A stretch of 64,000 bases of DNA, taken from positions 75,733,034-75,797,033 of the forward strand of contig OY720345.1 of assembly GCA_963082975.1 (NCBI GenBank), given 5' to 3'. Below are positions 1,729 through 58,710 of the stretch, piece after piece. Numbering within the stretch: the stretch's first letter is position 1; each line of letters opens with the position of its first letter. Below the pieces are notes generated by a model that saw only the letters and a list, made by a program, of their open reading frames with translations, searched no databases and was not told where the DNA came from. The translations under genes and the position numbers were made by a program. Source of the DNA: Labia minor. Taxonomy: Eukaryota; Arthropoda; Insecta; Dermaptera; Spongiphoridae.

Positions 1729-2280
1729 ACTATCTCGCCAGAGAGAAAATTTTCGATTTCGAGATTTTAATGTTTTTATACGTTTTGAAGGCTCCTGAAT
1801 CATTTTCAATTAGGTTGAGAAAAATGTCTATGTGTGTATATGTATGTGTGTGTTTATGTAGACAAGATTACGCAAAAACGGTTTGAGCTAGAATAATGAA
1901 ATTTGGTATACGGGTATTATTCAAAATTCGTAGTTTTTGAGAAATATATGTGGGTCATTACCTACCACGTTTTGATTTTTTTTCCTCTAAAAATATATGT
2001 TTGATATGTTTGTTTTTTACATGATTAAAAATTGTATAAAACCTCTATATATAGAATTTCAGCTTGAAAGTACCGAAATTAATTTTTCAACATGACTGCA
2101 AATCACGCGCCAGCACGTAACGTGGTGCCATCAACAAAGAGCCAAACACGCGCTGGTTTAATAAATATTATTTTTTTTTTTTAATTTATAATTTATAATT
2201 AATTAAATTTATTTTAAATATAATATATGTTATTTAATTCAATTCAAATTTGCAAGATAGTCGAGTGGAGACACTCTAGT
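1729..2280 (+). mobile_element. HINE-1 copy A (Helentron-like, non-autonomous)
   Basis: The copy starts with ACTATCTCGCCAGAG and ends with GATAGTCGAGTGGAGACACT plus CTAG. The 5' word ACTATCTCGC is repeated inverted near the 3' end (here GCAAGATAGT, slightly mutated). It is followed at once by the hairpin GAGTG-gaga-CACTC. A TGTGTATG microsatellite lies in the 5' third, next to the block AATGAAATTTGGTATA. This order (5' subterminal repeat, microsatellite, core, 3' subterminal repeat, hairpin) is the known Helentron/DINE-1 plan. The copy has no coding capacity. Related copies lie at 17400, 19126, 19440, 23973, 49111 and 56191. Confidence 0.75.
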
Positions 2281-3751
2281 TTATTTAAATTTGGAATTAT
2301 TTAGAAATTTTTGAAAAATAAATTTAGATAAAAAAAAAGTTAATTCATTGAAATGATTTTGCATACATTTTTTAATTATATTTTATTTGTTTATTTTTTG
2401 TTTTGAGTTAAGTGGGAGAAGATAAAATGGAAGATGCTAGGAATAAAGATGTTTGGAGTAGTAAGATTGCTGTGGCCAAGGTTTTTTTCAAGTTCGGTAT
2501 CGACATAGAGATGTTTTAATTTTAATTTATAATGTCTATATAGACTAAATTATTATTTTCCAAATTAAAACACTAATATTTTAATTCCATATTTATTGAT
2601 TAGTGAATGTTCATTGATTTACCAATCCAATGTTTATGAGTTTAATAGCTTAACAAATGCAAAACTTATTTATTTTCATTATCAATCACGAAATGAGTGA
2701 GTCCAAAACAAGAAAAAAAATTATATAATCTTTATTTTAATTTAATAAACAAAATTGATTAATTTTCCCTTATTTTGAATTTTTTCTAGGCTTATTTGAT
2801 TCTTTTTTTAAAATTATAATCAAATCGTTTGTTTTCATAATTTTTTTTTTATAGAAATAGGTTCATATATCTATCTATCTATATTTATATATATATATTT
2901 TGGTAGATATATGATGATGAATTAATTTAATTTTTTTTTTTTTTTTTTTGAAAACGAAATGATTTTCGGAATTCGTGTATTGGACAAGCTATTTAAAAAT
3001 AAAGGTGGGTCCTTTTCATTCATTCCTATATCTATCAATTATTCAAATCGAGTGCAAATATTGAGATTCGTTTTCTCAGACGAGACATTCCATTGGTTCC
3101 TCTCTCATCGTTCTTTCTCTCTTCTTCACATTCTTATTCATCACTGTCATCAGGTTATCCACCCTCGCTTAATTATCAATGACCCAAAGGGTGACTCGGG
3201 TGACGGCTCTTGTACTTTGTTATTCTACGCAATCAATTACTGACAATCAAAAAATATATGTCTCTATTTAAGACTGGGAATGGGTTGGAACGAAAATCAA
3301 CGATCATGTCAAATAGGAAGAGTTCACTCCCTTCTAACAGAAACAATACAAATATTTCTGTTCATTATTAATATTATTATGTCATTATATGTATCTATCA
3401 AAAAACATTTTAGTTTCATCAAATGAACAGTGCAAGTTATTGAAATTGGAATTATAATTAAGAATTCTCCAGTGTGATTGATTCCTTTTTTTTTTGATTC
3501 CGTCAACAATAAACTTATGAATATTTAAATTATTTCTTTCACTCCCGTACATATATTATAAGAAAGTGAAAATTCTTTAAAGGGTCAAATACACAAACTG
3601 AAATTGATATTTTTCCTTAATTCTCAATATTTTGTATTTGTATTTGATTTATATTTAATGAATATTCTATTCTATAAACACATATACTCTATTGTATTTA
3701 TTTCATAAGAAATTGACTATATCTTTTAAATATATTTTATATTTTATTTTA
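2281..3751. other. AT-rich DNA with a GC-richer island at 2985-3260
   Basis: Mostly poly-A/T and short TA repeats, including TCTA repeats near 2868-2885. The island at about 2985-3260 is open for 94 codons on the + strand, but the translation is low-complexity Ser/Phe/His-rich and matches no family I know. I treat it as non-coding, possibly regulatory. Confidence 0.35.
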
Positions 3752-4352
3752 TTAGGATGTTCGAAAAGTAATTTCGTTTTGTCTGCCAGAGGATTTAATT
3801 ATATTTTTTTCGAACACAACTTCACACTTAAACCAAATAATCATTATATTTTTAGAGAGCTGATAAAGCAATGCTTGTGTTTGAGAATGTTCAATTAAAA
3901 CTTGATCTTGATTTATTTACATTTTTAATATAAATTAATTACAAATATTTACAATATTAAAAGATTTCTTGTAGTTTTATGGTTGGTGCTCTTTTAAATA
4001 TGAGATCAATAGACAGCATTTTCGTCATATTTTACTTTTTACTTATAGAAAAGGTAAAAATGCTGTGCAAGCCAAAATGAAATTAACGGATATGTATGGT
4101 GAAGATGTTTTGCCAGAACAGGTTTGCAAAATTTAGATCCGGCAATTTTATACTGGAAGGCCTGTTGAAGATGATAAAAACATGCTAAAGGCATTAGTTG
4201 ATTTTTTGGGCGGTGAAATCTTTACTTGAAATGAAGATGTTAAAAAAATTATCTGGATCAGTTTTTTGTCTCTAAATATTTATTCATTATACGAAAATTG
4301 TCTTTCAGTTACAAAAAAAAAAAAAAAATGAAATTACTTACCGAAAAGCTAA
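3752..4352 (+). mobile_element. Internally deleted mariner-family transposon
   Basis: The left end TTAGGATGTTCGAAAAGTAA and the right end, read inverted as TTAGCTTTTCGGTAAGTAAT, are mariner-type terminal inverted repeats. TA dinucleotides flank both (3750-3751 and 4353-4354), which is the expected mariner target site. Inside, about 4045-4200 encodes a broken N-terminal transposase helix-turn-helix segment: GKNAVQAKMKLTDMYGEDVL, a stop and frame loss, then GRPVEDDKNMLKALVDFLG. Mariners are normally about 1.3 kb. At 601 bp this copy lacks the catalytic DDD domain and can only be mobilised in trans. Confidence 0.85.
4045..4230 (+). pseudogene. Mariner transposase N-terminal fragment
   Basis: This is the DNA-binding part of a mariner transposase. 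The words GKNAVQAKMKLTDMYGEDVL and GRPVEDDKNMLKALVD match the usual order of the mariner paired-like HTH and its GRP linker. The frame is interrupted between the two pieces and then ends. No catalytic region follows before the right terminal repeat. Confidence 0.75.
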
Positions 4353-5464
4353 TATTATATTAAATTAAATTTATTTATTTATATTCATATTATAATTTAA
4401 TTTTCCCCAAAAAATGCCAACACTTTATCTAGCATTTATGATTTAACACTGTTTAAATGTTTATTATTTTAATATAGTTACGAGTATAACAAAAAATTTG
4501 TTCATTCGATAGTCCATATATGTATAACTTACGATATATATCATTGTGAATAAAATTTTAAAATTATCATATTAAGTAGCTGAATTTTATTAACTTTGTT
4601 TTATTTTATTTTATTTTTTTTTTTTTTAATTTTCACTGAATATATTTTGCTTTTCAAATGCTATTATAACGGCTTTCACTGTCTTTAAGCCAAGGGTTAG
4701 AACGTGGGAGAAAAAAAAACAAACGACATTCTGGGCGGACAACGTCACGGGATGAGGGTGAGGATTATCGCATTTGACCGCTCATTACACTGCCCCTCTT
4801 AAAGGAATCAGACTCACGTCTACCTTCAAATGTTCCCAGCTCTTTGTGATTATACCAGGGGTATAATCTACTCTAGATCCAATTGAACAATTGGGTTCAC
4901 GAAACTTTCGTGTAAGTTTTCAACTGAGTTTCGTAGCCATAAATACACCTTCTAAATTATTATATTTATTTTAAATCATTCAGAATTCAAATGAAAAAGG
5001 AAAGGAACAAAAAAATAAAAAGTGGATTCATCTAAGAGCATAGCAATTTTAAAAATGACAAGTAGAAGTTTCACACGTCAAACTTTCATGACAAAATTAC
5101 ACTTTAGATTTAATTTTAATTATAAATATTAAAAAATTCAAATAACAAATTGAAAAACAATAATATATTACTTTTTCAAAAACGTATTTAATTTAAAAAT
5201 TTTAAAATAAATTTTATAAATCTTACACGGTTGTCTTTCACAGATTTCTATAACACCACAACTACTAATTCCTACAACGATCTCAATTCCACGCTATTTT
5301 AGTATTAAATATCTATATTTTAACTCATCTCCGATTGAATACAACATTATGTTTTTCTAAACACATTTTCTTAATTTATTGTATATTTTTGTCATTGCTC
5401 AATATTATTTATTACTATACTATAGATAACATTTAGCATTCAAAATTTATCTTTATTTTTTCAG
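4353..5464. other. Intergenic or 5' intron region of the mdh-like gene
   Basis: The first visible mdh-like exon has no start codon and opens with a splice acceptor, so at least one upstream exon must exist. I could not identify it. A GC-richer island at about 4680-4880 precedes it and could hold the promoter or first exon. The rest is AT-rich and featureless. Confidence 0.35.
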
Positions 5465-6972
5465 GGTTTCTTCGAAGAACCTTCAAGGTATGCATTTTAG
5501 GTGCAACTACCGAAGTTGGCAAAACATTATCCTTATGGCTAAGACTGGAGCCCCTTGTAACTACACTCGCAATATACGATCAGTGGAATTCTTTGGAAAA
5601 TCAACATTATGAATTATCTTTGATCGATTCCAAGTCACAAGTCATATCCTATGTTGACCCATTAAAAAATAACTCCTTTATTAACTTAGAAAAGATTCTT
5701 ATTGATTCAACGTTGGTCATTATAACGACTGGATATTCATATACAGATCCTAAACAAACCACAGAGGAATTGTTTAAAGCGAATAAAAAAATTGTATATC
5801 CTTTGATTGAAGTATTTTCCAATGTATGCCCGGATGCCCTTTTAGTAATTGCCACAAATCCTGTTACGGCACTAGTGAGTTAGTGAGTTGTAAAAACTAT
5901 CATATAGAATATAGTCTATTACAGTGATAGCGAACCTTTTTGAGAAGTAGGTCGTATTTAGATCATTATTTTTTTAGATCTAGTTCGTGAGTCACTAAGT
6001 ATTTAATTAAAAAAGAAATAAATAATTAATAGGTATATCAGTGTTTCTCAACCTTTCAGAGCATCGCCAAATCATCTGACCATTTTTTTTTAAATTTAAA
6101 AGAAAAAATCAAAAATGTTCAAAAGTTTGGCCACAAAATCATCTTACCTTTTTTTGAAAAAAATGTAAAAATTTATATATGTGGGTCAATTAAAAAGCTT
6201 GGGTCATAGGTTCGCCATCACTGGTCTATAGCATATAACAATTACCAAAGAGTTTGTTAAGCTCAATTTAATGTATCCACTTTTTAGGTGCCTATGACTA
6301 GTGCAATCCTGAGTAAGAAAAATGTATATAATCCAAAAAGAGTTTTCGGCATAACGTCAACGGAGGTGATGAGATCAAAACAGTTATTGTCAAATTATAA
6401 AACCCTCTCTAGTATGGAGATTAACTTACCTGTAGTAGGTGGGAATACACCAACAACAGTTGTACCCTTATTCACGCAATGTCAGCCCAAAATGGATTTA
6501 AACTTAACAGAAACTAGAGAACTTGTTCAAGAATGTAAAAAAGGGCCAATAAAGGTATATAATATCTGTTCTCTTGAATATAATATATTAAAAATAATTA
6601 ATATTTATAATCTTATAAGTAGTTTGCAAAAAATCAAGTCAAATATCATTAAAATAAAATAATCTTATTATATTCCAGATGAAACATGGGGATAAGAATA
6701 TTCAATTTTGTTTGAGTTTGAGTGCATTTAGAAGTATAATGGCGTTATTACGAGCACGGTCCGGTGTTCAAAATATTTCAGAAACATTTTTTGTTCAAAG
6801 CGATTTAACTTCAGCACCCTTTTTCTCATCGCCTGTTCTACTTGACACTCAGGGCATTGATAAAATATTTGGTTTTAGTGAACTAAACACGATAGAAAAT
6901 GATTTACTTTTGATATCCACTAATCGACTTGCTGTTCATCACGAAATAGCAATTGCAGATCTTGATTCTTAA
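5465..6972 (+). CDS. Divergent mitochondrial-type malate dehydrogenase paralogue (3 exons seen, 5' exon missing)
   Basis: Exons are 5465-5874, 6288-6554 and 6679-6972. All have AG acceptors and GT donors (GTGAGT, GTATAT), and together they give about 322 codons, close to mature mitochondrial MDH. The Rossmann segment reads KVCILGATTEVG, where MDH usually has GAAGGIG. PLVTTLAIYD, VCPDALLVIATNPV, VYNPKRVFGIT, SQC/TQCQPK and the C-terminal SSPVLLDTQGIDKIFG region all align in order with MDH. Key catalytic positions have changed. The GGHAGKT motif with the active-site His is GGNTPTT. The mobile loop that normally carries two Arg (PRKPGMTR) is SYTDPKQT. One Arg (EVMRS, for DVVRA) remains. The frame is nonetheless open throughout, so it is probably an expressed pseudoenzyme or recently dead paralogue. 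Divergent testis-biased MDH copies are known in flies. No in-frame Met precedes exon 2, so the start and any targeting peptide lie in an unseen upstream exon. Confidence 0.88.
5932..6223. mobile_element. Small hAT-type element in the mdh-like intron
   Basis: The ends CAGTGATAGCGAACC and GGTTCGCCATCACTG are near-perfect inverted repeats (14 of 15). Flanks GTCTATTA and GTCTATAG match at 6 of 8, consistent with a decayed 8-bp hAT duplication. The element is non-coding. A second hAT-like end (CAGTGTTTCTCAACC, about 6040) sits inside, suggesting a nested or chimeric origin. It lies between two mdh-like exons and leaves both splice sites intact. Confidence 0.8.
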
Positions 6973-6980
6973 ACTTGTAA

Positions 6981-7782: not shown

Positions 7783-9423
7783 TTAAAATTGAACCAGGCC
7801 CCTTCGGGCATAGGCCTCTCCCAGATTCCTCCAGGCCAACCTCTGTCTTGCTACTCTAGTCCAGTCGACGCCTGCGACTTCTTCAAGATCATCTGACCAT
7901 CTTCTTGAGGGTCTACCCCTATTTCTTTTATTCTCCATGGGATGCCATTCAGTTGCAACCTTGGTCCATCGATGGTTATTCATTCTTGAAATGTGGCCAG
8001 CCCATTTCCATTTTAGTCTTCTAATAATTACATTGATATTTTCAATATTAAACTTTTTATATATCTGGTTCATATTTATTCTGTCTTTCTTTCTCAGATA
8101 TAGTATGCTCCTGATCATTGTTCGTTGCGCAATTTCAAGATCTTTTTTATTTTTTAGAGTAAGAGACCAAGTCTGCCCTCCATATATTAAAACCGGTGTT
8201 ATGCATTTCTTGTAAATTTTTATTTTCGATCTCTGATCTATTTCTTTATTTTTTAAAATATACTTCATGGACCAAAATTTTTTCCATGTTAGAGCAATTC
8301 TTCTTTTGATTTCTTTTGTTGTTTGGTTTTCAAAACTTGTTAATTGTCCCAGATATATAGTTTCGTCTTTGCATGGTATGGGCTGTATTTTAGTATCGAA
8401 TTTTATTTCTTCTTGGTCTCCGTTGCAAAGAATTAACGATTTCTTTACATTAATTCTTAGTCCCATTTCTTTACTTTCTTTATTTAATTGGTTTATCATT
8501 TTTGTTATTTGATTTCTTGATGTTGCTATTATTACAACGTCATCCGCGAATCTTAAGTTATTTAAATAGGAACCATGTATTTTCAGTCCTTCATTTTCCC
8601 AATCTAGTCTTTTAAATATTTCTTCCAATGCACAATTAAAAAGCATAGGTGAAAGAGGGTCCCCCTGTTTAACTCCTCTTCTAACTGGGAAGAACGTTCC
8701 CGGCTTTTCTAGAATGATACGGGCTTTACAGTCTTTATAAATTTCTTGAATAATTTGCACATATTGTGGATTTACTCCTTGAGATATCAATGCCTCAAAA
8801 ACGGATTCCTGGTATATCGAATCGAATGCTTTTTCGTAGTCTATAAAGGCAAGAAAGATTTCCATCTTATATTCCTTTGATTTTTCTATAATTTGATTTA
8901 TAGTATGAAGATGATCACAAGTTGAGAATCCACTTCTGAATCCTGCTTGTTCCGTTGATTGGTTATAAGCCATTTGCTTTTCTAATCTATTATAAATAAG
9001 CTTCATAAATATTTTTCCAACACTTGATGATATTGTTATTGGTCGGTAATTTTTAATATCTTTTGGGTCTCCTTTTTTATATAAAATCATTACATTCGAT
9101 ATTTTCCATTGGTATGGTATGATTTGACTCTTCAAAATGTTATTGAATACCAATGTTAAAGGTTTTATAATTAGATTTATTGAGTTTTTAATTATTTCGT
9201 TTTTTATAGTGTCAATACCTGGTGTTTTTTCGGGTTTTAATTTTCTTATTATCCCTTCTAATTCGCTTTCTAAGAAATCTGGAATATCTTCCTGGAGATC
9301 ATTCGTTATTTTATATTCTTTATAATTTTCTTTTTTGTCGTATAATTCTTTATAAAATTCAGTAGCAATTTCTAGTATGTGTATCCTATTATTTTCTAAA
9401 ACCTCACTTTTATTTTTTATCAC
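7783..9423 (-). CDS. LINE ORF2, reverse-transcriptase part
   Basis: The second half of ORF2, 546 codons. It has the linker LEIATEFYKELY, then RT blocks NYRPITISSSVGKIF, AFIDYEKAFDS (first catalytic Asp), GVKQGDPLSPMLFN and LRFADDVVI (the catalytic FADD pair). Thumb and C-terminal region follow: YLGQLTSFE, PVLIYGGQTWSLT, RRLKWKWAGHISRM and GRPSRRWSDDL. All key RT residues are present. The Met at 9421-9423 is not a true start; it is the first Met after the nested insertion. Together with the endonuclease half the protein would be about 1,100 residues, usual for this type. The stop is close to the 3' poly(A). Confidence 0.88.
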   Translation of the reverse strand: MIKNKSEVLENNRIHILEIATEFYKELYDKKENYKEYKITNDLQEDIPDFLESELEGIIRKLKPEKTPGIDTIKNEIIKNSINLIIKPLTLVFNNILKSQIIPYQWKISNVMILYKKGDPKDIKNYRPITISSSVGKIFMKLIYNRLEKQMAYNQSTEQAGFRSGFSTCDHLHTINQIIEKSKEYKMEIFLAFIDYEKAFDSIYQESVFEALISQGVNPQYVQIIQEIYKDCKARIILEKPGTFFPVRRGVKQGDPLSPMLFNCALEEIFKRLDWENEGLKIHGSYLNNLRFADDVVIIATSRNQITKMINQLNKESKEMGLRINVKKSLILCNGDQEEIKFDTKIQPIPCKDETIYLGQLTSFENQTTKEIKRRIALTWKKFWSMKYILKNKEIDQRSKIKIYKKCITPVLIYGGQTWSLTLKNKKDLEIAQRTMIRSILYLRKKDRINMNQIYKKFNIENINVIIRRLKWKWAGHISRMNNHRWTKVATEWHPMENKRNRGRPSRRWSDDLEEVAGVDWTRVARQRLAWRNLGEAYARRGLVQF

Positions 9424-9620
9424 GTTTTTCTTAGCTTGCTTTCTTGTTTATCTGTTCGGATCAAATCTTGCAATCGAAATTTCGACCACTTCCAGTCATC
9501 CAATCGCTCTGAAACTTTTCAGAGTTATGTATTCTGGATGACAATACAATAAAATAACACATTCGTAGCTTGCAAGTGATTAATTAGAGCATAATTAATG
9601 AATATTTGTATTTTGTTAAC
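9424..9620 (+). repeat. Direct repeat, left copy
   Basis: Begins CACGTTTTTCTTAGCTTGC and runs through TTCGACCACTTCCAGTCATC to AGAGCATAATTAATGAATA. It is nearly identical to 10729-10930, which has extra GTTT units in its TTTG tract. Sequence diverges after about 9620. Confidence 0.85.
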
Positions 9621-13790: not shown

Positions 13791-13853
13791 ACTTTCTGGG
13801 TGGTAGAGGTCTGCTGCTGCTTTGTTTGATGTACTTGGCCTGGTTCTTAATTC

Positions 13854-14690: not shown

Positions 14691-14757
14691 TTTTGATAAG
14701 CTTCAGGAGTGAGTAGTAGGATCGACCGCACTCGACCAAGGTTCAGCAGAGACTCCC

Positions 14758-14769: not shown

Positions 14770-17399
14770 GGAAACATAAATTATCAATTAAAAATAAAAA
14801 AAATGTCGTCAGCATAATACATCCATGAGAAAAAAGGCACAATTTTCAGTTTTAAAAATTATAAAATTTTGTGTAATGAGGATGATTTTGGGAACTCCCT
14901 CGAAACATGGCAAACAAATATGCTATGATATAGAAGACACCCAGTAGACACCTTAAGTAGAAATCTTAATTAAAAATTGCGAATAATGAGTATTTTATAC
15001 ATTATAAAAAGAGCAATGAGAGGTTGTTATATTTTTATTTCTAATTACTCTGGTCTCTTGAAAGTAAATTATTTATAATTAAAATAAAATAAAATAAAAA
15101 TTTATAATAAGAAAATCTGCTTGCAAAAAATTACATTTACAGTTACAGTTTAAATACAATTACAGTTACTTATATTATAAAAAGGGAGGGACACACATGA
15201 GCCCTAAAAGGATTGCAATTCAGTTTTTGAGTTATACAATATTTTTTTTTTTATTTAATATAATTGCACATTTTCACAAGTCACAATATGAACATAGAAA
15301 CAATATGATTATAACATAGAATTTGTAAATAAAAGACCCCAACAAGGATTTTTTTTATGATTTACATGAACTAATAATGATACTCGGTGAAATTTACACA
15401 ATATTTGAGAGATATTTTATATAAATGTTTAAATAAACTTTCATATATATATATATATATTATGTGGTTTTTGAAAAAATATTAATCCCCATTCTCTAAA
15501 CCTTGTCTCAGTGAATTTTCCATCCTTGTATATTTTTAACGCTGATAATATGTATAAATATAGAGCATCACAAGACCTCTAAGTAATTTTTTAAAATTTG
15601 TTTGTAAGTAAAAATTATTGGGGAGGGAAGGGAGATGGGAAAGGATAGGGACTGAAGGGTTGTGGTTCAGAATACGAATACTTGGAGGGGTGTGGTTGCG
15701 CTGGCCAAGAACTTTCGAGTTCCGTAGAGCCACAGAGATAGATAGATAAGTGAAAATGATTAATATTTCATGACATTGTAATAAACATGTATTAATTACT
15801 AATACAATTTGTTACCGTGAAAATGAATGCGACTAGTACTCGAAACGTCGGCATCTAAATTGGGCGCCAACTATAGAGGGTCGCGAATGTAACACCTAAC
15901 GTAAAAAGATTTACAAAAAGAGGGGCTTAAGATTGGTGTTTAGCCATTTATCCTTCATGATGCGAAGATTGACTAAATGGACATAGATCCCAAAATCCAA
16001 TAATAATAATAAAAAGATGTATCTTTTAAATTTACAATTTAAATTTAAAATATTTTAACGGATGCTTAAAGTTAAATTTATTATTTTACTATTTATATTA
16101 CATATTTAATTAATTATATTAAAATATTAATATATATTTTTTTAAAAATCAAATATAAATTAGAATAGATTAACAAGAGAATATACTTACATTATTTTTT
16201 AGAAAAAAATATTTTTTTACTGTTGGTATTTTTTAAATAATTTATACTTTGATTTTTATTGTCAATAAACAGATTAAACATATGTATAACTTAATCTTTT
16301 ACTCTACTATTGATTAAGATATAATAAAAAAAAATCTATAAGAAACTAATTATTCGATTATCGAAATAACTGCGACCTGGCATCGCATCTAATGCAATTA
16401 TATCTAGTAAATAAATTAAATGTTGTAAACCTATATTGGGAATGAGGCCTCTAGTAAACTTCGAGCTAATTAAATTATATAAGTTTATATTGTCTAAAGA
16501 ATTTGAGTTCAATTATTTCTGGAGAACTAATTGTAAATGTGTTGATTTAATTTTATTTATGATCAAGACGGTGATATGGAAAGAAAATAAGACATTTTAA
16601 TTAATACATTTAATGTTAAAATTGTTTTAAAAATAGTATAACATATAGTAATATATATATATATATATATAAATTAACTTAATTAAATAAGGGATTTAAC
16701 ATTTTAATTAGAAAAATATTTTGTAAAATAAAAATTATTTATTTATTTTTGTTTTTATTTTAGCTAACGTTATTTTGAAATACTTCAATTTGATAAAAAT
16801 CAAGACCTCTTTCAGATCATTGATAATTATAAAAATAGTATATAATCGGAGTGACTCTACTTAAAAAAAAATCAACCCAGTTTTCAATATATCAATAGTA
16901 CTCCAACATTTCTCTTTCTGTCCTTTTTCGTTCTCAATTTTCTCCTAATTGATTTACATATATAGAAAAATAAATTTAATAGAAGAAAAAAAAAATCGGT
17001 ATTTTTATTTAAATTAATTTATACTTTCACATTAATCTTATGATTCTTATTTAAATAGGAAAAAAACCAGGGTAAATTTTTTTTAAAAAAAAATTACTTT
17101 CAAAGTTTAATCAGATTTAAAATTAAAAATATATATAGACCAACTAGTGCGGAATCCACTTCCATTAACTTTTATGATTTTTTACCATATTTAGAAAAAT
17201 AGGAATTTATATTTTTCAAATAATTTTATTTTATTTAACAAAATTTCATTCCTTTATAATAATTCTGGTTTAGTTATAATTTCAGTCAAGGTTATTGCTA
17301 TTATTATTGTTATAAGACCAATATAATTAATGATTCTACGACGACCATGGGTATGTAGATGTGTTAGTGATAGGAAACAAATCGATAGAAATAAAATGT
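14770..17399. other. AT-rich non-coding DNA
   Basis: No gene is recognised. At 15595-15740 (- strand) lies a GC-richer segment that is about 75% identical to 41185-41300 over roughly 95 bases. A second GC-richer stretch is at 15835-15970. Simple TA repeats occur at 15445-15462 and 16650-16670. The remainder is poly-A/T. Confidence 0.4.
15595..15740 (-). repeat. Dispersed repeat fragment shared with 41185
   Basis: On the - strand it reads GGCTCTACGGAACTCGAAAG then TTCTTGGCCAGCGCAACCAC. The segment at 41185-41300 on the + strand matches with scattered substitutions. Both are open in the matching frame (ALRNSKVLG versus ALLNSKILG), which suggests a shared coding ancestor, perhaps a transposon end. 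I do not recognise the family. Confidence 0.55.
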
Positions 17400-17938
17400 A
17401 GAGATTTTGATGTTTTTATAGGTTTTGAAGGTCCCTGAGTCCTTTTCACTAAGGTTGAAAAAAATGTCTGTGTGTGTCAAGATTACGAGAAAACGGTTTG
17501 AGCTAGAATAATGAAATTTGGTATACGAGCATTATTCAAAATTCGTAGTTTTCTATCAACTTTTGAGAAATGTAGCTCAACCGGAAGAGGGTCATTACCT
17601 ACCACGTTTTGATTTTTTTCTCTAAAGTGACCGTAAAAATATAGATATATGTTTGATAGTTTTTCACATGATTAAAAATTGTATAAAACTGCTATATATA
17701 GAATTTCAGCTTGATTAAATCGCTGAAAGTACCGGAATTAATTTTTTAACACTGCAACTCACGCACCAACACGAGAAGTGGTGCCATCAACAAAGAGCCA
17801 AAAAAACGCTGGTTTAATAAATATTATTTATTAATTATAATTTATAATTTATAATTAATTAAATTTAATTTAAATATAATATATGTTATTTAATCTAATT
17901 CAAATTTGCGAGGCAGTCCTGTGGAGACACTCCAGCTT
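17400..17938 (+). mobile_element. HINE-1 copy B
   Basis: Lacks the 5' subterminal repeat and begins at GAGATTTTGATGTTTTTATA. The microsatellite is short (TGTGTGTG). The 3' end has GCGAGGCAGTCCTGTGGAGA then CACTCCAGC, so the hairpin stem is partly mutated. The body matches the other HINE-1 copies closely. Confidence 0.75.
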
Positions 17939-18379
17939 ATATTTTAGGAAAGAAAAAAAATTATCATAACCTAAAAAGTTCAATTGATTTATTGAGTTAT
18001 TAGAATTGTTTTGTAATATGAGGCGTCTATAACTTTATCTTAGGAGTAAATTTTTACTTTTTCAGATTTAAAATATTAATTGAATATTAAAGAAAATGTA
18101 TAATGAGTCAGTGATCATTTATAAATAATAAATAATTAATAAGAACATTACATATCTACTTGGTAATAGTTAACAGCCATCTCCATTGAAGAGTACATTA
18201 CAAAATTAGATATTTTTACAAGTGTGACTTTAAATTAAAAATATTATTAGTACGTATACTTCTAGGATTATACATTTTTTTAAAATAATTATTTATTGTT
18301 ATTAAATAATTTTATATCATTCGATTTGCTTATCCATATAAACAATTCTATTTTAGAAATAAATTAATTTAAAAAAAAA

Positions 18380-20090
18380 AAGTCGAATTGGCAGTCGTGG
18401 GACTGGCCGACAGAAGTGAAAACTTGTGCGTAAGAAATTTGAAAGCAGACGGAATGCGCACCAGCTTCACGAGAAAAATGAAATTTATATACGTATATAT
18501 ATATATATATATAAAATTCATAATTATTTTTTTCAGCAAACTGATTATTATTACAAAAATATTAAAAATACGATGTGTATGAATATATATATATATATGT
18601 CTGTCTGTCTGTGTGTGTGTGTCTGTCAAATACTCAAAAACTACCCGTCCGATTGCGATGAAACTTTCAGGGATTGTTGTGGGCGTCCCAGGGAAGGTTT
18701 TAGTGTAGTTAAATCCAAAATTAATTTATCCAAAATTAATTTAAATAGTAATATTTTGGTAAAAGTCTATTTATGGTTACCATGGTTACATTGAAAAATT
18801 TACAATAAATAAATAAAAATAATTGGAAATTTTTTCAAATTATTATTTTGATAAATTTTATTAATATTTTTAATTTTTTTTAAACTGCCAAAAATAACAT
18901 ACCCATAATAATAGTTGTAATAAAAAGAAAAATATAAATCACAATGTAAGTAAAATATTGAATCGTGTTATTTATATTGTTTCAATTATTGTTTGAATAT
19001 TTATTAAATTTATATATAGATTAATTTACATGTTTAAATGTATATTTAATAAATTTATTTATTGATTCTTAATATTAATAATTCCAATTACTTTCTTGAA
19101 AATTTTTTTTATTTAAAAGCATATTCAGCATATCTCGCAAATTTGAATTGGATTAAATAACATATATTAATTTAAATTTAATTAAATTAATTCAATTATA
19201 AATTAAAATTAATAAATAATATTTATTAAACCAGCGAAAGTTTGGCTCTCTTTTGATGGCACCACGTCACGTGTTGGCGCGTGAGATTTCCAGTGTTAAA
19301 AAATTAATTCTGGTACTTTCAGCAATTCAATTTTCGATGTTGAGATTTTGATGTTTTTGATGTTATAAATAATATTTATTAAATTATAATTTAATTAATT
19401 TAATTTAATTTAAATTAATAAATATTATTTAATCAAATTCAAATTTGCGAGATAGTCGAGTGGATAGTGGAGTGTTTGGCTCTTTGTTGATGGCACCACG
19501 TCACGTGTTGGCGCGTGAGATTTCCAGTGTAAAAAAATTAATTCTGGTACTTTCAGCGATTCTATCAGGCTGAAATTCTATATATAGCAGTTTTATACAA
19601 TTATTAATCATGTGAAAAATTATCAAACATATATCTTTATTTTTACGGTCACACACACACACACACACACACATATTTAAAAATTAATTTATTAAAATAT
19701 ATATTATATAATATATTATATATAGTATATAATTTAATATATATATATATATATATTCTGAAATTAATTTTAAATTATATAAATATATTAGAAATTAATT
19801 TAATATAATTTAACACATAATAATATATTAAAATATTTTATTTTATATATACATAATTTAGTAATACTGATTATTAATGTAAATATAAATAATAATATTT
19901 AATATGGCAAATATGTAAAATTTCGTAAAGAATGTATCAGAAGTTTAGTGTCTAACATTCTGGCGTATTGCGCATGCGTATATCGGTCGGTCGGTCGGGT
20001 CGGTGTCGTTTTGGAATCTCACGCGAAATCTATATTTTTTCCCCATCCCGCAAAAGTGCTCAACGCCGCTAAAGAAGTTTTCACTTCAAA
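18380..20090 (-). mobile_element. HINE-3 copy with nested HINE-1 pieces
   Basis: The left end (18383-18430) has GGCAGTCGTGGGACTGGCC, a hairpin of CAGTC and GACTG, followed by GAAGTGAAAACTT. The right end (20071-20087) has AAGAAGTTTTCACTTC, the inverse of that word. On the - strand this gives 5' subterminal repeat, body, 3' subterminal repeat and hairpin. A TGTCTGTCTG/GTGT microsatellite (18599-18627) is followed by CGATTGCGATGAAACTTTCA. HINE-1 fragments at 19126-19660 lie inside. A closer-spaced copy is at 45077. Confidence 0.7.
19126..19660. mobile_element. Rearranged HINE-1 pieces nested in HINE-3
   Basis: In order along + there are four pieces. First is a - oriented 3' half (19126-19335). 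Second is about 30 bases of HINE-1 5' sequence in + orientation (TTTTCGATGTTGAGATTTTG). Third is a + oriented 3' end (about 19440-19465). Fourth is a second - oriented partial copy (19470-19660) that stops in a CA repeat. This order cannot come from one insertion. It suggests recombination or template switching between opposite copies. Confidence 0.7.
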
Positions 20091-20823: not shown

Positions 20824-21193
20824 AATAAGTTGACCTGTGGCCAGGTCCGAACCGACCGACTGTTTGAAATAAATTAATTACCAACTACAGAAATAATTTC
20901 AAATAATTTTAATATATCTATTAATGTAATAAAAAACAGATATGGATACATAAATAATAAATATAAACATTTTTAATTGTATTTTATTTATAATATATAT
21001 GCAAGACCAGGCTGTGACGTCATGAATGGCTGGATGACGTCATATAATTTTAAATCAAGAAAAAACTAATAAATATGATTTTTCTCGAGGATAAAACCAA
21101 TACAAAGTGCATGATTCGTGGTGATATGTAAAAAATCTTCTCATGTGAAATTTGGTGTGAAAACAATACCTCCCTTACTATCGTCGGTCGGTA
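20824..21193 (-). mobile_element. HINE-2 copy a, deleted form
   Basis: Left end AATAAGTTGACCTGTGGCC contains the hairpin ACCTG-gcca-CAGGT (on -), next to CCGAACCGACCGAC. The right end is ATCGTCGGTCGGT, the inverted subterminal partner. The microsatellite block present in copies at 26030, 41691 and 58061 is missing. Those copies carry two direct copies of GTGAAATTTGGTGTGAAAA flanking it, and this copy has one, as expected from a recombination deletion. Confidence 0.75.
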
Positions 21194-23889: not shown

Positions 23890-24743
23890 CAGTGACTCTC
23901 AACCTTTTCTTTTTTTACCGCGGCACACTTTTAACGGTTTAAAAAAGTGTAAAGTTTACCATATTGAAAATTAGCTGGAGTGTCTCCACTCGACTATCTC
24001 GCAATTTGAATTGGATTAAATAACATAATATATTATATTTAAATTAAATTTAATTAATTATAAATTATAAATAATAAATATTAAACCAGCGCATGTTTGA
24101 CTTTTTATTGATGGCACCATGGCACGTGTTGGCGCGTGAGATTTGCAGTGTTAAAAAATTAATTCTGGTACTTTCAGCAATTCAATCAAGCTGAAATTCT
24201 ATATATAGCAGTTTTATACAATTATTAATCATGTGAAAAATTATCAAACATATATTTTTATTTTTACGGTCACTTTAGAGGAAAAAAAAAATCAAAACGT
24301 TGTAGGTAATGACCCTCTTCCGGTTGAGCTACATTTCTCAAAAGTTGATAGAAAACTATGAATTTTGAATAATGTCCATGTACCAAATTTCATCATTCTA
24401 GCTCAAACCGTTTTTGCTTAATCTTGCCTACATACATACACACACACACACACACATACACACACACACACACACAGACATTTTTCTCAACCTTAGTGAA
24501 AATGATTCAGGAACCTTCAAAACGTATAAAAACATCAAAATCTCAACATCGAAAATTTTCATGATCGCAATACTATCTCTGGCGAGATAGTAAAAATGGT
24601 TCCAAAAACGGTTTATTTAGAACCATATTGAAAAAATTTAGAAAAAAAAGTCGGAAATGTTTAAGAGCCTATAATTTGGTAGCACACTTTTGAAAATCTC
24701 GCGGCACACAAAAGTGCCGCAGCACACTGGTTGAGAATCACTG
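23890..24743. mobile_element. hAT-type element (CAGTGAYTCTCAACC family) interrupted by HINE-1
   Basis: Ends CAGTGACTCTCAACC and GGTTGAGAATCACTG are inverted repeats. Flanks CCTTAGAT and CCTTAGAG match at 7 of 8 as the 8-bp duplication. Short subterminal words TACCGCGGCACACTTTTAAC and TCTCGCGGCACAC recur in related copies at 28892 and 59723. HINE-1 at 23973-24591 splits it, so the hAT insertion is the older. No coding sequence remains. Confidence 0.85.
23973..24591 (-). mobile_element. HINE-1 copy D, near-complete, nested in hAT
   Basis: Read on -, the 5' end is ACTATCTCGCCAGAGATAGT, a perfect hairpin of ACTATCTC and GAGATAGT. The 3' end is GCGAGATAGTCGAGTGGAGA then CACTCCAGCTAA. A long GTGTGTATG microsatellite (24430-24477 on +) lies beside AATGATGAAATTTGGTA. 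This is the best copy for defining the family. Confidence 0.85.
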
Positions 24744-39958: not shown

Positions 39959-40216
39959 GTATTTTTTTTATTTCACCAGTTAGTTTAATGTATACTAAAT
40001 TTTATCAAAATCCGTTGAGCCTTTCAAGCTATACACGTCTATTCGGATACACAATGAACAGGAGTACGGATATACAGACCGACGGACGGACAGACATAAA
40101 AAAAAAATATTTTTTTTCTGTTAATAAAATGCATGATTTGTGGAGATATATGAAAATCTCCATATGTGAAATTTGGTGTAAAAACAATACCTTTCCTCTT
40201 CCTATCGTCGGTCGAT
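39870..40216 (-). mobile_element. HINE-2 copy e, old and degenerate
   Basis: GAGCTGTGGCCAG at the left resembles the HINE-2 hairpin end. From 39990 the sequence follows HINE-2: CAAAATCCGTTGAGCC, a GACGGACGGACAGACA microsatellite, GTGAAATTTGGTGTAAAAAC and ATCGTCGGTCG. The middle is replaced by TA repeats. Confidence 0.6.
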
Positions 40217-41690: not shown

Positions 41691-42288
41691 AATAAGTTGA
41701 CCTGTGGCCAGGCACAGAACCGACCGATGGTTTGAAATAAATTAATTTCCAGCTTCAGAAACAATTCAAAATAATTTAAATGTATCTATTAATGCAATAA
41801 AAAACAGATATGGATATAACATACATATTTTTAATTTTATTTTATTTATAATATATAAAGAGGGGCTGGGTGACGTCATATAATTTTAAATTAAGAAAAA
41901 ACGAATGAAGATGATTTTTGCCGAGGATAAAACCAATACAAAGTGCATGATGATTCGTGAAGATATTTAAAACATCTCCTCGTGTGAAATTTGGTGTGAA
42001 AATAATCCTTCCCTTCCTATTACTACCACTTCCGGTTTCCGGATCACCAAAAGTTGATCAATTCATCATACTGATGCATTAAGTGAATATAGCAAATTTT
42101 ATCAAAATCCGTTGAGCCGTTCAAGCTGTCCACATCTATAAGGACACATAGACAGACAGACGGACGGACAGTAATCACGCTAAAAATACTTTTTCCGGTT
42201 AAGAAAATGCATGATTCGTGGAGATATGTAAAAATCTCCACATGTGAAATTTGGTGTGAAAACAATACCTCTATTACTATCGTCGGTA
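41691..42288 (-). mobile_element. HINE-2 copy c
   Basis: Left AATAAGTTGACCTGTGGCC hairpin end and right CTATCGTCGGTAG end. A GACAGACAGACGGACGG microsatellite lies at 42150-42172, between two GTGAAATTTGGTGTGAAAA blocks. The first subterminal repeat is slightly mutated (CCGACCGATGG). Confidence 0.8.
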
Positions 42289-44648: not shown

Positions 44649-45076
44649 CTCTAGGCTCTTAGCGGGCCAACATTATCAAAATATATTTTATAATTCGATG
44701 GGTTTTTAAAAGGTAAGTACCGGGACCCCGAGCCTCGGCTCGGTACTTAAGTTAAAAAAAATGATTCATTATTATTGGATTTGGCTGGTAATATTAATAC
44801 CTGGGACACCGAGCTCTCGCTCTACCCTTTAAAAAATATTGATACACAATTCTTTAATTATTTATTACAATTATTAAATGTTACACATTTGCATCAATCT
44901 GATTAAAATTAATGAACTTGTGCTCCTCAATAATACATAAATATATAATATATAGGTACATATATTTTTTTTCTATAGTGTTTTTTTGAAAAACTGTTTA
45001 GCGCCCCAAGTGGTTATAAAACAAACTAAAGACAAAAAAACGTGCTTTGCAGCTTTTCGGAATTAAAAAAGCAAAA

Positions 45077-45586
45077 TTGGCAGTCGTGGGACTGGCCGAC
45101 AGAAGTGAAAACTTCTGCGTAAGAAATTTTAAAACAGACGAAATTCGCGCTATTTCACGAGAAAGATGAATTTCATATGCATGTATATATATATAACTTA
45201 TATATTATTTTAAACATATATTTTAAACAAATTTGTAACTTATATTTATATATATATAAATACACAACTTTGTTTAAAATATTGCAATACGAACTGTTTT
45301 ATAATTCTTATCTCTAACATAAAATATATATTTATTATGTGAAGTTCATTTCGTATAATTTTGATTATATATGTATATATGAAATGAACTTTACATAATA
45401 AATATATATTTATATGTTAGAGATAATTTATAAAACAGTTCTAATGACAATTCAAATTTCGCGCTCTGTTATAAGAAATTTGAAAGCAGATGGTTTCATG
45501 GTGTTGGTCACGATCACGCGAGTTCTATACTTTTTCCCCATCCCGCAAAAGTGCTCAACGCCGCTAAAGAAGTTTTCACTTCAAAA
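45077..45586 (-). mobile_element. HINE-3 copy with a long foldback
   Basis: Left GGCAGTCGTGGGACTGGCC hairpin and GAAGTGAAAACTTCT. Right AGAAGTTTTCACTTC is the exact 15-base inverse. The interior carries a foldback at 45291-45441. It is about 510 bp and non-coding. CCCCATCCCGCAAAAGTGCT near the right end is shared with the copy at 18380. Confidence 0.8.
45291..45441. repeat. Inverted repeat, arms about 61 bp, loop 28 bp
   Basis: Arms 45291-45352 and 45381-45441 start and end with GAACTGTTTTATAA and its inverse, and share TATCTCTAACAT. They match at about 57 of 61 positions. The foldback sits where a microsatellite might be expected in a HINE. Confidence 0.85.
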
Positions 45587-46579
45587 ATTATTTAATATTT
45601 GGAAATATATCTGACTTATAGAAAAAATGAATATTAATTAAAGAAAGAAATAGTTTTTAAAATATCCTGAATAATATGTAACAATTTTCAAGATAGAAAT
45701 TTATTACAATATTACAATTATTAACTGTTGCATCATTGCATCAATCTGATTAAAATGAATGGAACTTCGGGTACTCAATAATAATAAATAAAATAATATT
45801 AATAAATATATTGAATAATATTTTATTGAAAAAATATTAAAACTTATAAAACTATCTAAAACTTTATTAATAAAAGAACAATGAATAAATAAATATAGAA
45901 TAGTAATTTATTAAAAAGTAAACAATAGATAAAAAGAAAAAAAAATAACAAAATCATTATTTTCATTTTTAAATAACGATTCACCCGGCGAGTTTCGAAC
46001 CGACGAAATCCACTCGTTAAAACATCAGTCCAACCGCTGGACTATATGTATTTAGATAAAAAATTGTCATTTTTTTACTGTCTTAGCAGGCAGTATTAAA
46101 AATTTTGACGTTTTCCATATAATATATAATTTTCAATTAAGAAATTAATAATGAAGCTGTATGTTTCAAGAGATATCATCAATAAAACTTAATTTTTCTT
46201 TATAAATACTATATCTAGTGTGAATTTGAAAAAAATCGTTAGAGCGGTTTTTGAGAACCATGATATATAGATAAATACATATATACAATTTTAGCTAGCA
46301 TAATAAGATAAGATATATATATATATACACAGTGGGGCGTAGCGTGATCTATTATGATGGGGCAGGGGAGTCCGTGGGTCTTCCCCGGAAAAAATTTTGA
46401 CAAAATAAATTATTCATTATCTTTAGACTATACTTATAAGTAATTTAAAGATTTTTTTTACTTCTTACAACTACAAAACTAATCACTTTTAAATTTATTT
46501 TTTGCACAATGTTTGAGGGGGGGAACACATATATATAAATTAAAGTTGATAGTCTCTTGATAGTCTCTTATAAGCTTAT

Positions 46580-49048: not shown

Positions 49049-49110
49049 TTTAGTTCAAATACATATGCAATACTTAGAGGACTTGAGGGAGTGAATGAAT
49101 ATAAAATTAG

Positions 49111-49680
49111 CTGGAGTGTCTCCACTCGACTATCTCGCAAATTTGAATTGGATTAAATAACATAATATATTATATTTAAATTAAATTTAATTAATTATAA
49201 ATTATAAGTTAAATTTAATAAATAATATTTATTAAACCAGCGCATGTTTGGCTCTTTGTTGATGGCACCAAGTCAAGTGTTGGCGCGTGAGATTTGCAGT
49301 GTTAAAAAATTAATTCTGTTACTTTCAGCGATTCAATCAAGCTGAAATTCTAGATATAGCAGTTTTATACAATTTTTAATCATGTGAAAAATTATCAAAC
49401 ATATATCTTTATTTTTAAGGCCACTTTAGAGGAAATAAAAATCAAAACGTTGTGGGTAATGACCCTTTTCCGGTTGAGCTACATTTCTCAAAAGTTGATA
49501 GAAAACTACGAAAACCGTTTTTGCGTTATCTTGTCTAAATACATACACACACACACACACCGACAGACATTTTTCTCAACCTTAGTGAAAATGATTCAGG
49601 AACCTTCAAAACGTATAAAAACATCAAAATTTCAACATCGAAAATTTTCGTGATCGCAATACTATCCCTGGCGAGATAGT
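49111..49680 (-). mobile_element. HINE-1 copy E
   Basis: Begins CTGGAGTGTCTCCACTCGAC on + (the 3' hairpin) and ends ACTATCCCTGGCGAGATAGT (the 5' hairpin). A CA repeat is at 49548-49560. The core is slightly deleted before the microsatellite. Confidence 0.8.
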
Positions 49681-54880: not shown

Positions 54881-54889
54881 AATAAATAG

Positions 54890-55459: not shown

Positions 55460-55490
<31 letters not shown>

Positions 55491-56190: not shown

Positions 56191-56672
56191 GCTATCTCGT
56201 AATCTCGTAAAAATTTTCGATGTTGAGATTTTGATGTTTTTATACGTTTTGAAGGTTCTTGAATCATTTTCACTAAGGTTGAGAAAAATGTCTGTGTGTG
56301 TGTATGTGTGTGTGTATGTATGTAACTAAGATTACGCAAAAACGGTTTGAGCTAGAATGATGAAATTTGGTACATGGGCATTATTCAAAATTCATAGTTT
56401 TCTATCAACTTTTGAGGAATCTAACTCATTGCCTACCACGTTTTGATTTTTTTTTCCTCTAAACTGACCATAAAAATATAGATATATGTTTGATTATTTT
56501 TCACATGATTAATAATTGTATAAAACTGCTATATCTAGAATTTCAGCTTGATTTATTTGCTGAAAGTACCAGAATTAATTTTTTAACACTGCAAATCTCA
56601 TTTTAATTTAAATTAATATATGTCATTTAATCCAATTCAAATTTGCGAGATAGTCGAGTGGAGACACTCCAG
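56191..56672 (+). mobile_element. HINE-1 copy F
   Basis: 5' end CTATCTCGTAATCTCGTAAA (duplicated, mutated). A TGTGTGTATGTGTG microsatellite at 56291-56320 is followed by AATGATGAAATTTGGTACA. 3' end GCGAGATAGTCGAGTGGAGA then CACTCC. The core between is deleted relative to copy D. Confidence 0.78.
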
Positions 56673-58060
56673 ATTTTTTTTAATTGAAATTATTCTTATT
56701 TATAATTCTGGTTTGAAATTAAAAGGACGGTATTTTTTTTAATTTCTAAATTTACATTAATAAAAATTTATTTTATTTTTATTAAATATTAATTTATTAC
56801 GATATAAAATTTTTATCCTTTGAAAAAAATCAGGAAAACCTCCATTAGTAAAGTAATTTTTGTAATTTAATAAACTAAATTAAATTGGTTACTTATTAAA
56901 TTTTGTTTATACAAGTGATAAATTAAATTCGATGTCTCTCTTCTTTTTATTATTCATAAATTAATTTATCAGTTATATGTATATACTTATGTATATATAC
57001 AGTTACATAAATGTATTTTTTTTTTTTATTTTTATTATTATTTTCAATTTTAATATTTGCAATTTCTACTAAGTTCATTAAATCAGTAAATATAATTAAT
57101 ACTAAAAACGTCAATTAAGATTAGATTATTATATCGATATAAATTAAGCATATAAACTAGTGTAAGAGTTGAGAATCTTAACTGAAGTAGATAAGCCAAT
57201 CTATCATTCTTCGATTAAATAGATAACCACTAAAGAAGTTTTTCTTGAAATGAGTGCTATCATTAGATTTGCTCGATTATAAAATTAATTCTTTGCTGAA
57301 TCCTTGCCACTTGTTAGATCAACCAAGTTGTTATAATTCTGAAAAGCTTGTTATTGGTCTCATAGGGTGGAAGCGGGGGTGGGGGGGGGGGGTATGAGAA
57401 GGTAGCTCCGATCTCGACTCACAGACGAGCATGCATTTATTTTATTTATTTATATGCATTCAGGCATGAGGCGATGAGATATTTATTGCCAGGGCAACTG
57501 ATTTCAAATTTTATTACGATCGATATCTCTTGATTCAATTCGATGATATCTCTAGTTTGATATATCGCTTTCAAGATATCCCTTGACATTGCAATAGTAA
57601 TGACCAATGTGTTAAATATTAATGAAAAACGAGACCATTATATTATTCTTGAATTTATCTATTCAAGTTTATCGATTCTCGTCTAACATACTATGTAGAA
57701 TATTAGTTTTTAGAATTCAATATGAATGGAAATATTACTATAAATCAACATGTGGGAAAAAAAAATATATTTCTACAATTCATACAAGTGTCGTTTGATA
57801 CAAAGATATCAATAAAAATATTGAAGTTTAATAATTGATTCAATTTTTATTCAACTTCACAGTTGAATTAGTAATGACGGTTGCCTAACAATCAGGATTA
57901 TTTCCCTTAATGAGTATTTAAATAGAAATCTACAAATATAAATTAGTTAAAGAAATGACATATGAATTAAATAAAAATACAATTATTTCTTATTTAATAT
58001 GATATTATAAAAATTAAAAAAAAAAATAATTAAAATAAAAGAAAATTTAATATAATTTTT
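56673..58060. other. Non-coding with a GC-richer region at 57170-57600
   Basis: 57375-57392 is GGGGGTGGGGGGGGGGGG, a second long G tract like that at 20681. The surrounding island has no coding frame. Confidence 0.4.
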
Positions 58061-58710
58061 ACCGACCGACGATAGTAAGGGAGGTATTGTTTTCACACCA
58101 AATTCCACATGTGGAGATTTTTACATATCTCCACGAATCATGCATTTTCTTAACAGAAAAAAGTATTTTTAGCATGATGTCTGTCCGTCCGTCCGTCTGT
58201 CCGTCCGTATAGATGTGTACAGCCTGAACGGCTCAACGGATTTTGATGAAATTTGGTATATTTACTTAATGCATCAGTGGGATGAATTGATCAACTTTTG
58301 GTGCAAATCCGGAAACCGGAAGTGATAGTATTAGCAATCGCCGATAGGAAGGGAAGGGTTATTTTCACACCAAATTTCACATGAGGAGATTTTTTTACAT
58401 ATTACCACGAATGTATTGGTTTTATCCTCGGGAAAAATCATCTTCATTATGTTTTTCTTAATTTAAAATTATATGACGTCACCCAGCCCTTCATGACGTC
58501 ACAGCCTCCTTATTATGATCACGGGCAACGCCGGCTACTTCAGCTATATATTATAAATAAAATAAAATTACAAATATTTATGTTCTATCCATATCTGTTT
58601 TTTATTACATTAATAGATATATTAAAATTATTTGAAATTGTTTCTGTAGCTGGAAATTAATTTATTTCAAACCGTCGGTCGGTTCGGACCTGGCCACAGG
58701 TCAACTTATT
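58061..58710 (+). mobile_element. HINE-2 copy d, full-length
   Basis: 5' end ACCGACCGACGATAGTAAG; GTCCGTCCGTCTGTCC microsatellite (58181-58207); GATGAAATTTGGTATA; 3' CGTCGGTCGGTTCGG, hairpin ACCTG-gcca-CAGGT, then CAACTTATT. Compared with the other copies it has about 35 extra bases near 58516-58550 containing GCAACGCCGGCTACTTCAGC, which resembles a canonical insect Helitron 3' end. Confidence 0.88.

Follow-up and report, generated by a model that had tools for sequence, protein, structure and literature searches.

Four Helentron-type repeat families in Labia minor: at least three related by descent and one carried in part by a Helitron-type element

Do repeats that share one structural plan also share an origin? 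A stretch of 64,000 nucleotides from the dermapteran insect Labia minor raises the question (C2:75733034-75797033 of an assembly of 604 Mb in 71 contigs; 75% A+T; hereafter the window). It contains three repeat families, HINE-1, HINE-2 and HINE-3, each with subterminal inverted repeats (subTIRs) and, outside the 3' subTIR, a hairpin with a 5-bp stem and a 4-base loop. An initial annotation had described these as three unrelated families with one Helentron plan, and had suggested several active lineages. The motifs lie at the positions it gave and its Helentron-type class held; the independence of the families did not, and activity was supported only in part. We are confident that HINE-1, HINE-2 and HINE-3 are non-autonomous Helentron-type elements, that HINE-1 and HINE-2 form one diverged group together with a further family, HINE-4, and that HINE-3 is a second type with a palindromic subTIR, whose long form contains HINE-1 sequence and whose 0.5-kb form is partly cargo of a Helitron-type element. 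The elements thus fall into four HINE families whose kind is known; at least three of these are related by descent, and one is partly Helitron cargo. The window copies are:

1729..2282, + strand: HINE-1 copy a, full length; one mismatch in the 3' subTIR, 5' palindrome partner lost, 3' end approximate
17396..17940, + strand: HINE-1 copy e, truncated at the 5' end
18382..20087, - strand: HINE-3 copy b, long 1.7-kb form with an internal HINE-1-derived block at 19131-19652
20826..21192, - strand: HINE-2 copy b, short form with both ends, without microsatellite and core
23971..24591, - strand: HINE-1 copy b, full length; ends ACTATCTC...CAGCTAA
26032..26697, - strand: HINE-2 copy c, full length
39991..40215, - strand: HINE-2 copy e, 5' fragment reaching the core
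41691..42287, - strand: HINE-2 copy d, 5' subTIR shortened
45077..45582, - strand: HINE-3 copy a, 0.5-kb form with a foldback; cargo of the Helitron-type carrier
49107..49680, - strand: HINE-1 copy c, full length apart from a partial deletion of the core
56192..56673, + strand: HINE-1 copy d, 5' subTIR damaged, 3' end intact
58061..58708, + strand: HINE-2 copy a, full length; (GTCY)n and core both present

The common plan was compared with chance by a strand-aware scan for an 8-mer with at least four G/C whose reverse complement lies 200-2200 nt downstream, with a perfect 5-4-5 hairpin (at least three G/C in the stem) within 20 nt. This gave eight matches in the window, against a mean of 0.05 and a maximum of 1 in 40 dinucleotide shuffles; six were HINE-1 and HINE-2 copies, and two came from a hAT element (50965-51630, see below). 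G+C-rich 5-4-5 hairpins numbered 19, against a mean of 2.45 and a maximum of 6 in 40 shuffles. HINE-3 was missed by this filter because its subTIR is G+C-poor, and was recovered repeatedly by a later scan under other settings. The subTIRs measure 10 bp in HINE-1, 10-11 bp in HINE-2 and 15 bp in HINE-3 (with one mismatch in copy b), and all families have the short palindrome near the 3' end. The 5' end is palindromic in HINE-1 and HINE-3. SubTIR and inverted-repeat partner read ACTATCTC/GAGATAGT in HINE-1 copies b and c (one mismatch in c) and ACTTTCCC/GGGAAGT in HINE-4; the partner is partial in HINE-2 and gone in HINE-1a. A microsatellite adjoins a conserved core in HINE-1, HINE-2 and HINE-4, an arrangement not demonstrated for HINE-3.

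Predicted folding, taken alone, gave less clear support for the plan than the scan against shuffles. The expected stem was the best predicted 3' fold of HINE-1a (z -2.0) and, one pair longer, of HINE-2a (z -3.6), and it appeared in the centroid fold of the HINE-3a 3' end (z -4.5, 3' subTIR included). For HINE-1b a neighbouring stem, TGGAGacaCTCCA, was predicted instead (z -1.25), and the 5' hairpin of this copy had a predicted energy of -6.7 kcal/mol (z -3.4).

Boundaries were counted in 338 kb of DNA from this genome (the window and fetched loci L028-L068). HINE copies with unrelated flanks have conserved 5' and 3' boundaries. At least four T immediately precede 11 of 13 HINE-1 5' ends, and at least five T precede 14 of 16 HINE-2 5' ends, two of which have a common flank; eight reverse readings of the HINE-1 palindrome and eight internal duplicates of the HINE-2 5' block had been excluded. 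Distinct HINE-3 flanks, otherwise unrelated, end in at least five T in 17 of 18 cases, most of these loci being hand-picked, as unpaired places, from 100 listed subTIR places. The background for TTTTT is 1.6% per site. On the 3' side, HINE-1 ends in CAG(A, CTAA or CTTA) followed by at least three T (17/18) and HINE-2 in CAACTTATT (11/11); R-CT(T/A)A precedes the flanking T in HINE-2, HINE-4 and most HINE-1 copies. In the whole assembly 33,663 matches to the HINE-1 3' end were counted (16634 + 17029; up to two mismatches; control 0), and the HINE-3 subTIR GAAGTGAAAACTTCT has 3,995 exact matches (2015 + 1980; reversed control 2).

Empty paralogues for all three window families are provided by a small inverted-repeat element, which we take to be hAT-MITE-like (MITE, miniature inverted-repeat transposable element):

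59718..60090, - strand: HINE-free copy, the empty-site reference for both T-tracts
28889-29294 and 23888-24748: other copies

The T-tracts of this element, whose ends read CAGTGATTCTCAACC, are repeated insertion targets. Its internal tract reads GGGACCAC-T8-CAATATG when empty (window 59972); in L041 it is filled by HINE-2, GGGACCAC-T6 [..CAACTTA] TTTCAATAT, and in the window by HINE-1b, GGAACCA-T5 [..CAGCTAA] TTTTCAATATG, so that 8 T in the empty tract stand against 9 T in total at either insertion. The outer tract, empty with T8 at window 28897 and with T9 at about 60083 (minus strand), is filled by HINE-3 in L036/L054 (one locus), CTCAAC-T6 [..] T7-ACCGCGG, with 13 T. No non-T bases beside the insertions are duplicated at the sites with paralogues. 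The elements insert in T-rich or TT sites without modification of the target, although the sites would also be compatible with a TT duplication. T-run counts and empty paralogues together bear out, for all three families, the insertion between Ts that the initial annotation had proposed as a check. Published Helentrons behave in the same way at their targets (PMC4067079, sections 6 and 8). A Helentron-type (HINE) assignment fits best because all three families interrupt oligo-T tracts of which empty versions exist in the window; subTIRs, the 3' hairpin and the lack of a non-T target-site duplication (TSD) agree with it.

The claim that the families have no end sequence in common did not survive comparison: HINE-1, HINE-2 and HINE-4 have a common 5' block, a common core and similar 3' ends in R-CT(T/A)A. 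The cores compared were:

24337..24411, - strand: HINE-1 core beside its microsatellite
58228..58302, + strand: HINE-2 core beside its microsatellite, homologous to the HINE-1 core

These 75-nt cores are identical at 46 of 75 positions without gaps, and when core profiles were run over both strands of the window (about 128,000 positions) HINE-1 and HINE-2 were each other's top non-self match. A local alignment of HINE-1 with HINE-2 scored 42, above the maximum of 38 in 1000 shuffles; among 2000 random window segments, a pool in which HINE copies had been left, 14 scored at least as high. For the downstream parts the respective scores were reached by 1, 34 and 0 of 500 shuffles, and for the upstream parts by 4 and 1 of 500. 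The 5' block of HINE-2 is duplicated internally (58072-58141 and 58331-58412), and a deletion between these two blocks seems to have produced the short copy at 20826-21192.

HINE-4 came from a scan of the fetched DNA, in which two full copies were seen:

L042:234-1347: HINE-4 copy
L048:5776-6962, reverse strand: HINE-4 copy

It consists of T6/T7, ACTTTCCCGC, the inverted repeat GGGAAGT, a microsatellite, the core, 3' GCGGGAAAGT, the hairpin GGGAGgacaCTCCC and GCTTA, followed by two T in one copy and one T in the other. Over 296 aligned positions the identity between HINE-4 and HINE-1 is 67-70%, and the 5' blocks of HINE-1, HINE-2 and HINE-4 align, with GTATTG, GAGATTTT and ATGTCTGT in common. 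Relative to HINE-1, HINE-4 has two changed subTIR positions, which are matched in the 3' subTIR and, but for a missing base, in the inverted repeat, and two hairpin pairs in which both bases differ. Every one of the four families can form the five pairs of the hairpin, and each pair is changed on both sides somewhere. The 5' inverted repeat was not required in the scan that found HINE-4; the hairpin was, and its pairing there is therefore not independent evidence. In HINE-1, HINE-2 and HINE-4, then, block and core are recognisable while subTIR, partner repeat and hairpin stem have changed together. HINE-2 sits at the same site within both HINE-4 copies, and HINE-4 therefore appears to have moved together with HINE-2 cargo.

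HINE-3 is tied to HINE-1 in another way. Twelve dispersed long copies were found, 11 of 1.4-2.8 kb and one of 4.3 kb, and the main matched stretches of HINE-3b are 90.5-98.5% identical to other long copies (mostly >94%). Because 11 of the 12 carry the HINE-1-derived block (L052 is the exception), the HINE-1 pieces are part of the long HINE-3 family; a reading of 19131-19652 as free HINE-1 copies was rejected, the pieces belonging to the 1.7-kb HINE-3. HINE-3b also has an internal (GTCT)n with core-like sequence on the + strand at 18640, whose likeness to the core is not beyond chance. With homologous HINE-1 and HINE-2 cores, HINE-4 as a link between the two and HINE-1 sequence inside long HINE-3, the view of the families as unrelated, or as three independent versions, is not supported. 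For repeat annotators this is a warning that families defined by their ends alone may be miscounted as independent.

The 0.5-kb form of HINE-3 lies inside another repeat, the carrier:

44717..46313, - strand: non-autonomous Helitron-type carrier, A|TCTTATC... to ...GGTAC|T, containing HINE-3a
29699-31416, 46579-46828 and 48099-49052: further copies or pieces of the carrier family

The junction reads ATAATTTTT|GAAGTG. Both flanks of HINE-3a recur in L020, L022, L028 and L029 and the 3' flank also in L043 (L026 coincides with L029; in L028 and L029 extra DNA lies between the HINE-3 ends), and L044 is a short HINE-3 copy with other flanks. All 10 carrier 5' ends read A|TC, and 10 of 11 3' ends read GGTAC|T; the 5' TC and the A|T target are canonical Helitron features, and the 3' end is GGTAC rather than CTRR. 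This 3' end matches that of a Rep-helicase locus, L061/L066: three window copies are 93.8-96.7% identical to it (139-218 nt compared) and a fourth 88-89% (75-76 nt). Carrier and locus would be partners on the evidence of their 3' ends, the 5' end of the locus lying outside the DNA read. Among the 100 listed HINE-3 subTIR places, 68 make up 34 short pairs of 426-480 nt, and 23 of the 34 measure exactly 466 nt, matching the window copy; the pairs are tied to the carrier for the loci read. We conclude that 0.5-kb HINE-3 has spread, at least in part, as carrier cargo, which suggests that a Helentron may multiply without its own transposase. The carrier family also has a stretch that looks tRNA-like by eye (for example at about 45970-46040), in which ARAGORN calls no tRNA, and two G+C-rich hairpins near its 3' end.

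Is there an autonomous partner, and are the lineages active? PF14214 has 104 matches genome-wide, none inside the window, and no Rep-helicase domain was found in six window open reading frames scanned singly. Helentron-signature sequence (YWWR...RGSPH, with the S of RGSPHxH as given in PMC4067079, section 7) occurs in the Rep-helicase frames of L064, L065, L067 and L068, which are not tied to the HINE families; the Helitron signature RGLPH occurs in those of L061, L062, L063 and L066. L061 and L066 hold a 1652-aa open Rep-helicase frame in two copies that are >99% identical; in L061, and not in L066, a 1.3-kb inverted copy of the 5' region (1-1331, 8008-9332) lies downstream of the intact frame. 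Two different flanks precede the L064-type copies, which are 99.7-99.8% identical and start with T5 or T6|AGTTATACGAGG; the opposite end of these copies was not located in the DNA read.

Divergence from consensus is below 2% in some HINE copies. Ten of 13 long HINE-3 rows lie at 0.5-2.7% and the others at 5.4, 8.0 and 44.1%, the last being a carrier copy with unrelated DNA. Eight HINE-1 copies range from 1.7 to 9.1% (closest pair 0.5%), the five window copies being 3.2-6.4% from their own consensus, and HINE-2 ranges from 1.4 to 10.4% in the 11 usable of 16 rows (five begin at the internal duplicated block). These values fit recent, not necessarily present, activity. The suggestion of several active Helentron lineages has the low-divergence copies and the intact Helentron-signature frames in its favour; against it, no Rep-helicase bounded by HINE-1, HINE-2 or HINE-3 ends occurs in the eight loci read, and short HINE-3 copies move at least partly as cargo.

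Several observations weigh against the Helentron-type reading or its details. An autonomous Rep-helicase with the same ends, for which the initial annotation had proposed a search, was absent from the eight loci read of the 104 PF14214 matches; L066 has a HINE-1 copy, as a separate element beyond the 3' end of its Rep element, and the 5' ends of L064-type copies also follow a T-run, but they differ in sequence and have no repeat partner within the DNA read. A fused endonuclease, the defining feature of Helentrons, was not detected at E 0.001 in five Rep proteins scanned, none of them identified as a HINE partner. The 5' and 3' subTIRs of HINE-1 agree over 10 bp, slightly less than the published 11-15 bp, and predicted 5' folding was unremarkable in HINE-1a (z -1.0), HINE-2a (z 0.1) and HINE-3a (z -0.5). 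Each empty-site comparison uses diverged paralogues whose T-runs differ by up to five; at the HINE-1b site one C has either become T or disappeared, and substitutions separate the paralogues at other positions.

Could the HINEs belong to another class? MITEs of a cut-and-paste transposon with a TT or T-rich TSD are one candidate, given that DINE-1 was formerly classed as such (accessible text of PMC2374699) and that T-runs of variable length on both sides make a TT duplication compatible with these sites. Terminal inverted repeats (TIRs) with a fixed TSD are nevertheless lacking: the outermost bases of the HINEs are not inverted repeats and the hairpin adjoins the 3' end, and the host tract that took HINE-1 as well as HINE-2 has 8 T without an insert and 9 T with either one, for which no 2-bp TT duplication is needed. 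The window also offers a useful contrast, since its hAT element has what the HINEs do not, a TIR and an 8-bp TSD:

50965-51630: remnant of an element which we take to be a hAT, TIR TAGGGCTTAC...GTAAGCCCTA, 8-bp TSD CGCTTGTT

A piece inside it presumably corresponds to the hAT C-terminal domain. We consider the MITE explanation very improbable, and still less credence is due to the idea that the HINEs are canonical Helitrons (5' TC, 3' CTRR, A/T insertion). RGLPH Rep-helicases and Helitron-type ends do exist in this genome, but the HINE boundaries already contradict that idea: among the ends listed, most 5' termini read T-run|AC or T-run|GA and most 3' termini A|TT or C|TTTT rather than TC and CTRR, in contrast to the uniform A|TC starts of the carrier.

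Within the Helentron-type class, the initial view of independent lineages with merely a common plan draws on HINE-3, for which no core was demonstrated as its own outside the captured block and whose subTIR is of the palindromic type, and on the one downstream comparison of HINE-1 and HINE-2 that 34 of 500 shuffles equalled. The reciprocal top matches of the core profiles, the identity of HINE-4 to HINE-1 and the HINE-1 sequence in nearly all dispersed long HINE-3 copies make it unlikely. Slightly less likely again is that HINE-3 is in practice no longer a Helentron and is spread by the carrier. The common flanks at several loci and the abundance of short pairs speak for this; against it, short pairs are tied to the carrier solely at the loci read, HINE-3 flanks that end in T-runs are otherwise unrelated, and long HINE-3 is dispersed at low divergence. 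For the preferred reading, non-autonomous Helentron-type elements, a mechanism may be proposed in which a trans-acting Rep-helicase of an autonomous Helentron would nick the T|subTIR border and displace one strand of the HINE, displacement would terminate at the 3' hairpin, and the single strand would be joined into an oligo-T target.

HINE-1 to HINE-4 are new families, though their kind is already known. As far as the accessible text of PMC2374699 goes, D. willistoni has three DINE-1 subtypes with different subTIRs and >1,000 copies each, and Drosophila DINE-1 keeps its core while subTIRs change, so the pattern described here is known in kind. The subTIR sequences of Drosophila DINE-1/INE-1 differ from those of the HINEs, that of HINE-1 being 10 bp long. 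HINE-Mo/Helentron-Mo of Metaseiulus and the Culex families resemble our elements in a palindromic subTIR like that of HINE-3, a 3' palindrome, oligo-T targets with variable T number and non-autonomous forms; in those systems a partner is described that shares the ends and carries a fused endonuclease, unlike here in the eight loci read (PMC4067079). The 11 Cg_HINE elements of the Crassostrea gigas genome are alike in GTCY microsatellites, an 11-12 bp subTIR with a complementary inverted repeat, and TT sites without TSD, and differ in central satellite arrays, of which none was seen in the HINE copies here (PMC7492417, accessible text). Hel-2/BmHel-2 of Lepidoptera share a 5' inverted repeat, a subterminal repeat, a (CTGT)n microsatellite and a 3' hairpin, and differ in published 5' TC and 3' CTRR termini and A-T flanks (PMC4344730, accessible text). 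What the present locus adds is that a claim of likeness has become a set of insertions tested for three families in one host repeat with known empty paralogues. A single genome with four sets of ends, attached to bodies that are related or linked, also provides natural material for asking what a Helentron transposase reads: the subTIR sequence, or the pairing among subTIR, inverted repeat and hairpin.

Does the core reach beyond these families? With a 31-nt profile from the start of the HINE-2 core, the 338 kb contained 37 distinct matches scoring at least 12 (10 HINE-2, 8 HINE-1, 19 other), against 7-9 per shuffle. A repeat in L065/L059 came next after HINE-2 (28.8), the best of four shuffles reaching 16.7; in L065 it starts near TCTTATATATAAAATTCTCG and ends in CTAG|T as in L062/L063, the canonical Helitron form. 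Other matches above 16.7 were L054 (23.5), inverted HINE-4-like pieces (20.8, 19.9, 17.2), a site within the Rep frame of L063 (19.5) and a carrier-like copy (19.0); L063 -2515 merely equals the best shuffle. A microsatellite excess upstream of matches outside HINE-1 and HINE-2 was not demonstrated. Against HINE-1, the scores of the core-like stretches in the HINE-3b insert and the carrier were reached by 633 and 552 of 1000 shuffles, and against HINE-2 by 142 and 42 of 1000, hardly better than shuffles; weaker look-alikes exist in the carrier and in further repeats linked to microsatellites, and most of them do not stand out clearly from chance.

We offer only as a tentative idea, more doubtful than probable, that rolling-circle transposons here are modular: microsatellite and core would be kept, subTIR, partner repeat and hairpin would be exchanged together, the core would also be present close to the 5' end of a family of canonical Helitron type, and one class could become the other's main vector. 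Helitron and Helentron machines would then have one replication module in common, which they recognise or copy, and the Helitron-type carrier of HINE-3 would be a case of one class as main vector of the other. The core motif had 15 matches in viral contigs and 4 in prokaryote contigs; these had no microsatellite in the context shown, appeared coding-like and were read as chance, and two further scans of viral contigs gave no match. A 20-mer ascribed to the Drosophila core matched neither the literature text nor the viral contigs; in the accessible text of PMC2887409, on RTE elements and microsatellite families, both the searched core letters and the word Helitron were absent.

The rest of the window includes a PF00056 match, a malate-dehydrogenase-like exon that is the first of the exons at 5437-6972, the remaining ones being judged by eye; likely neighbours accompany it. 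On the window ARAGORN called no tRNA and Rfam no family at gathering score. A broken LINE-like retroelement (LINE, long interspersed nuclear element), with endonuclease and reverse transcriptase frames, occupies 7783-14702 and holds an inverted repeat of 162-175 bp (11282-11456/11964-12138).

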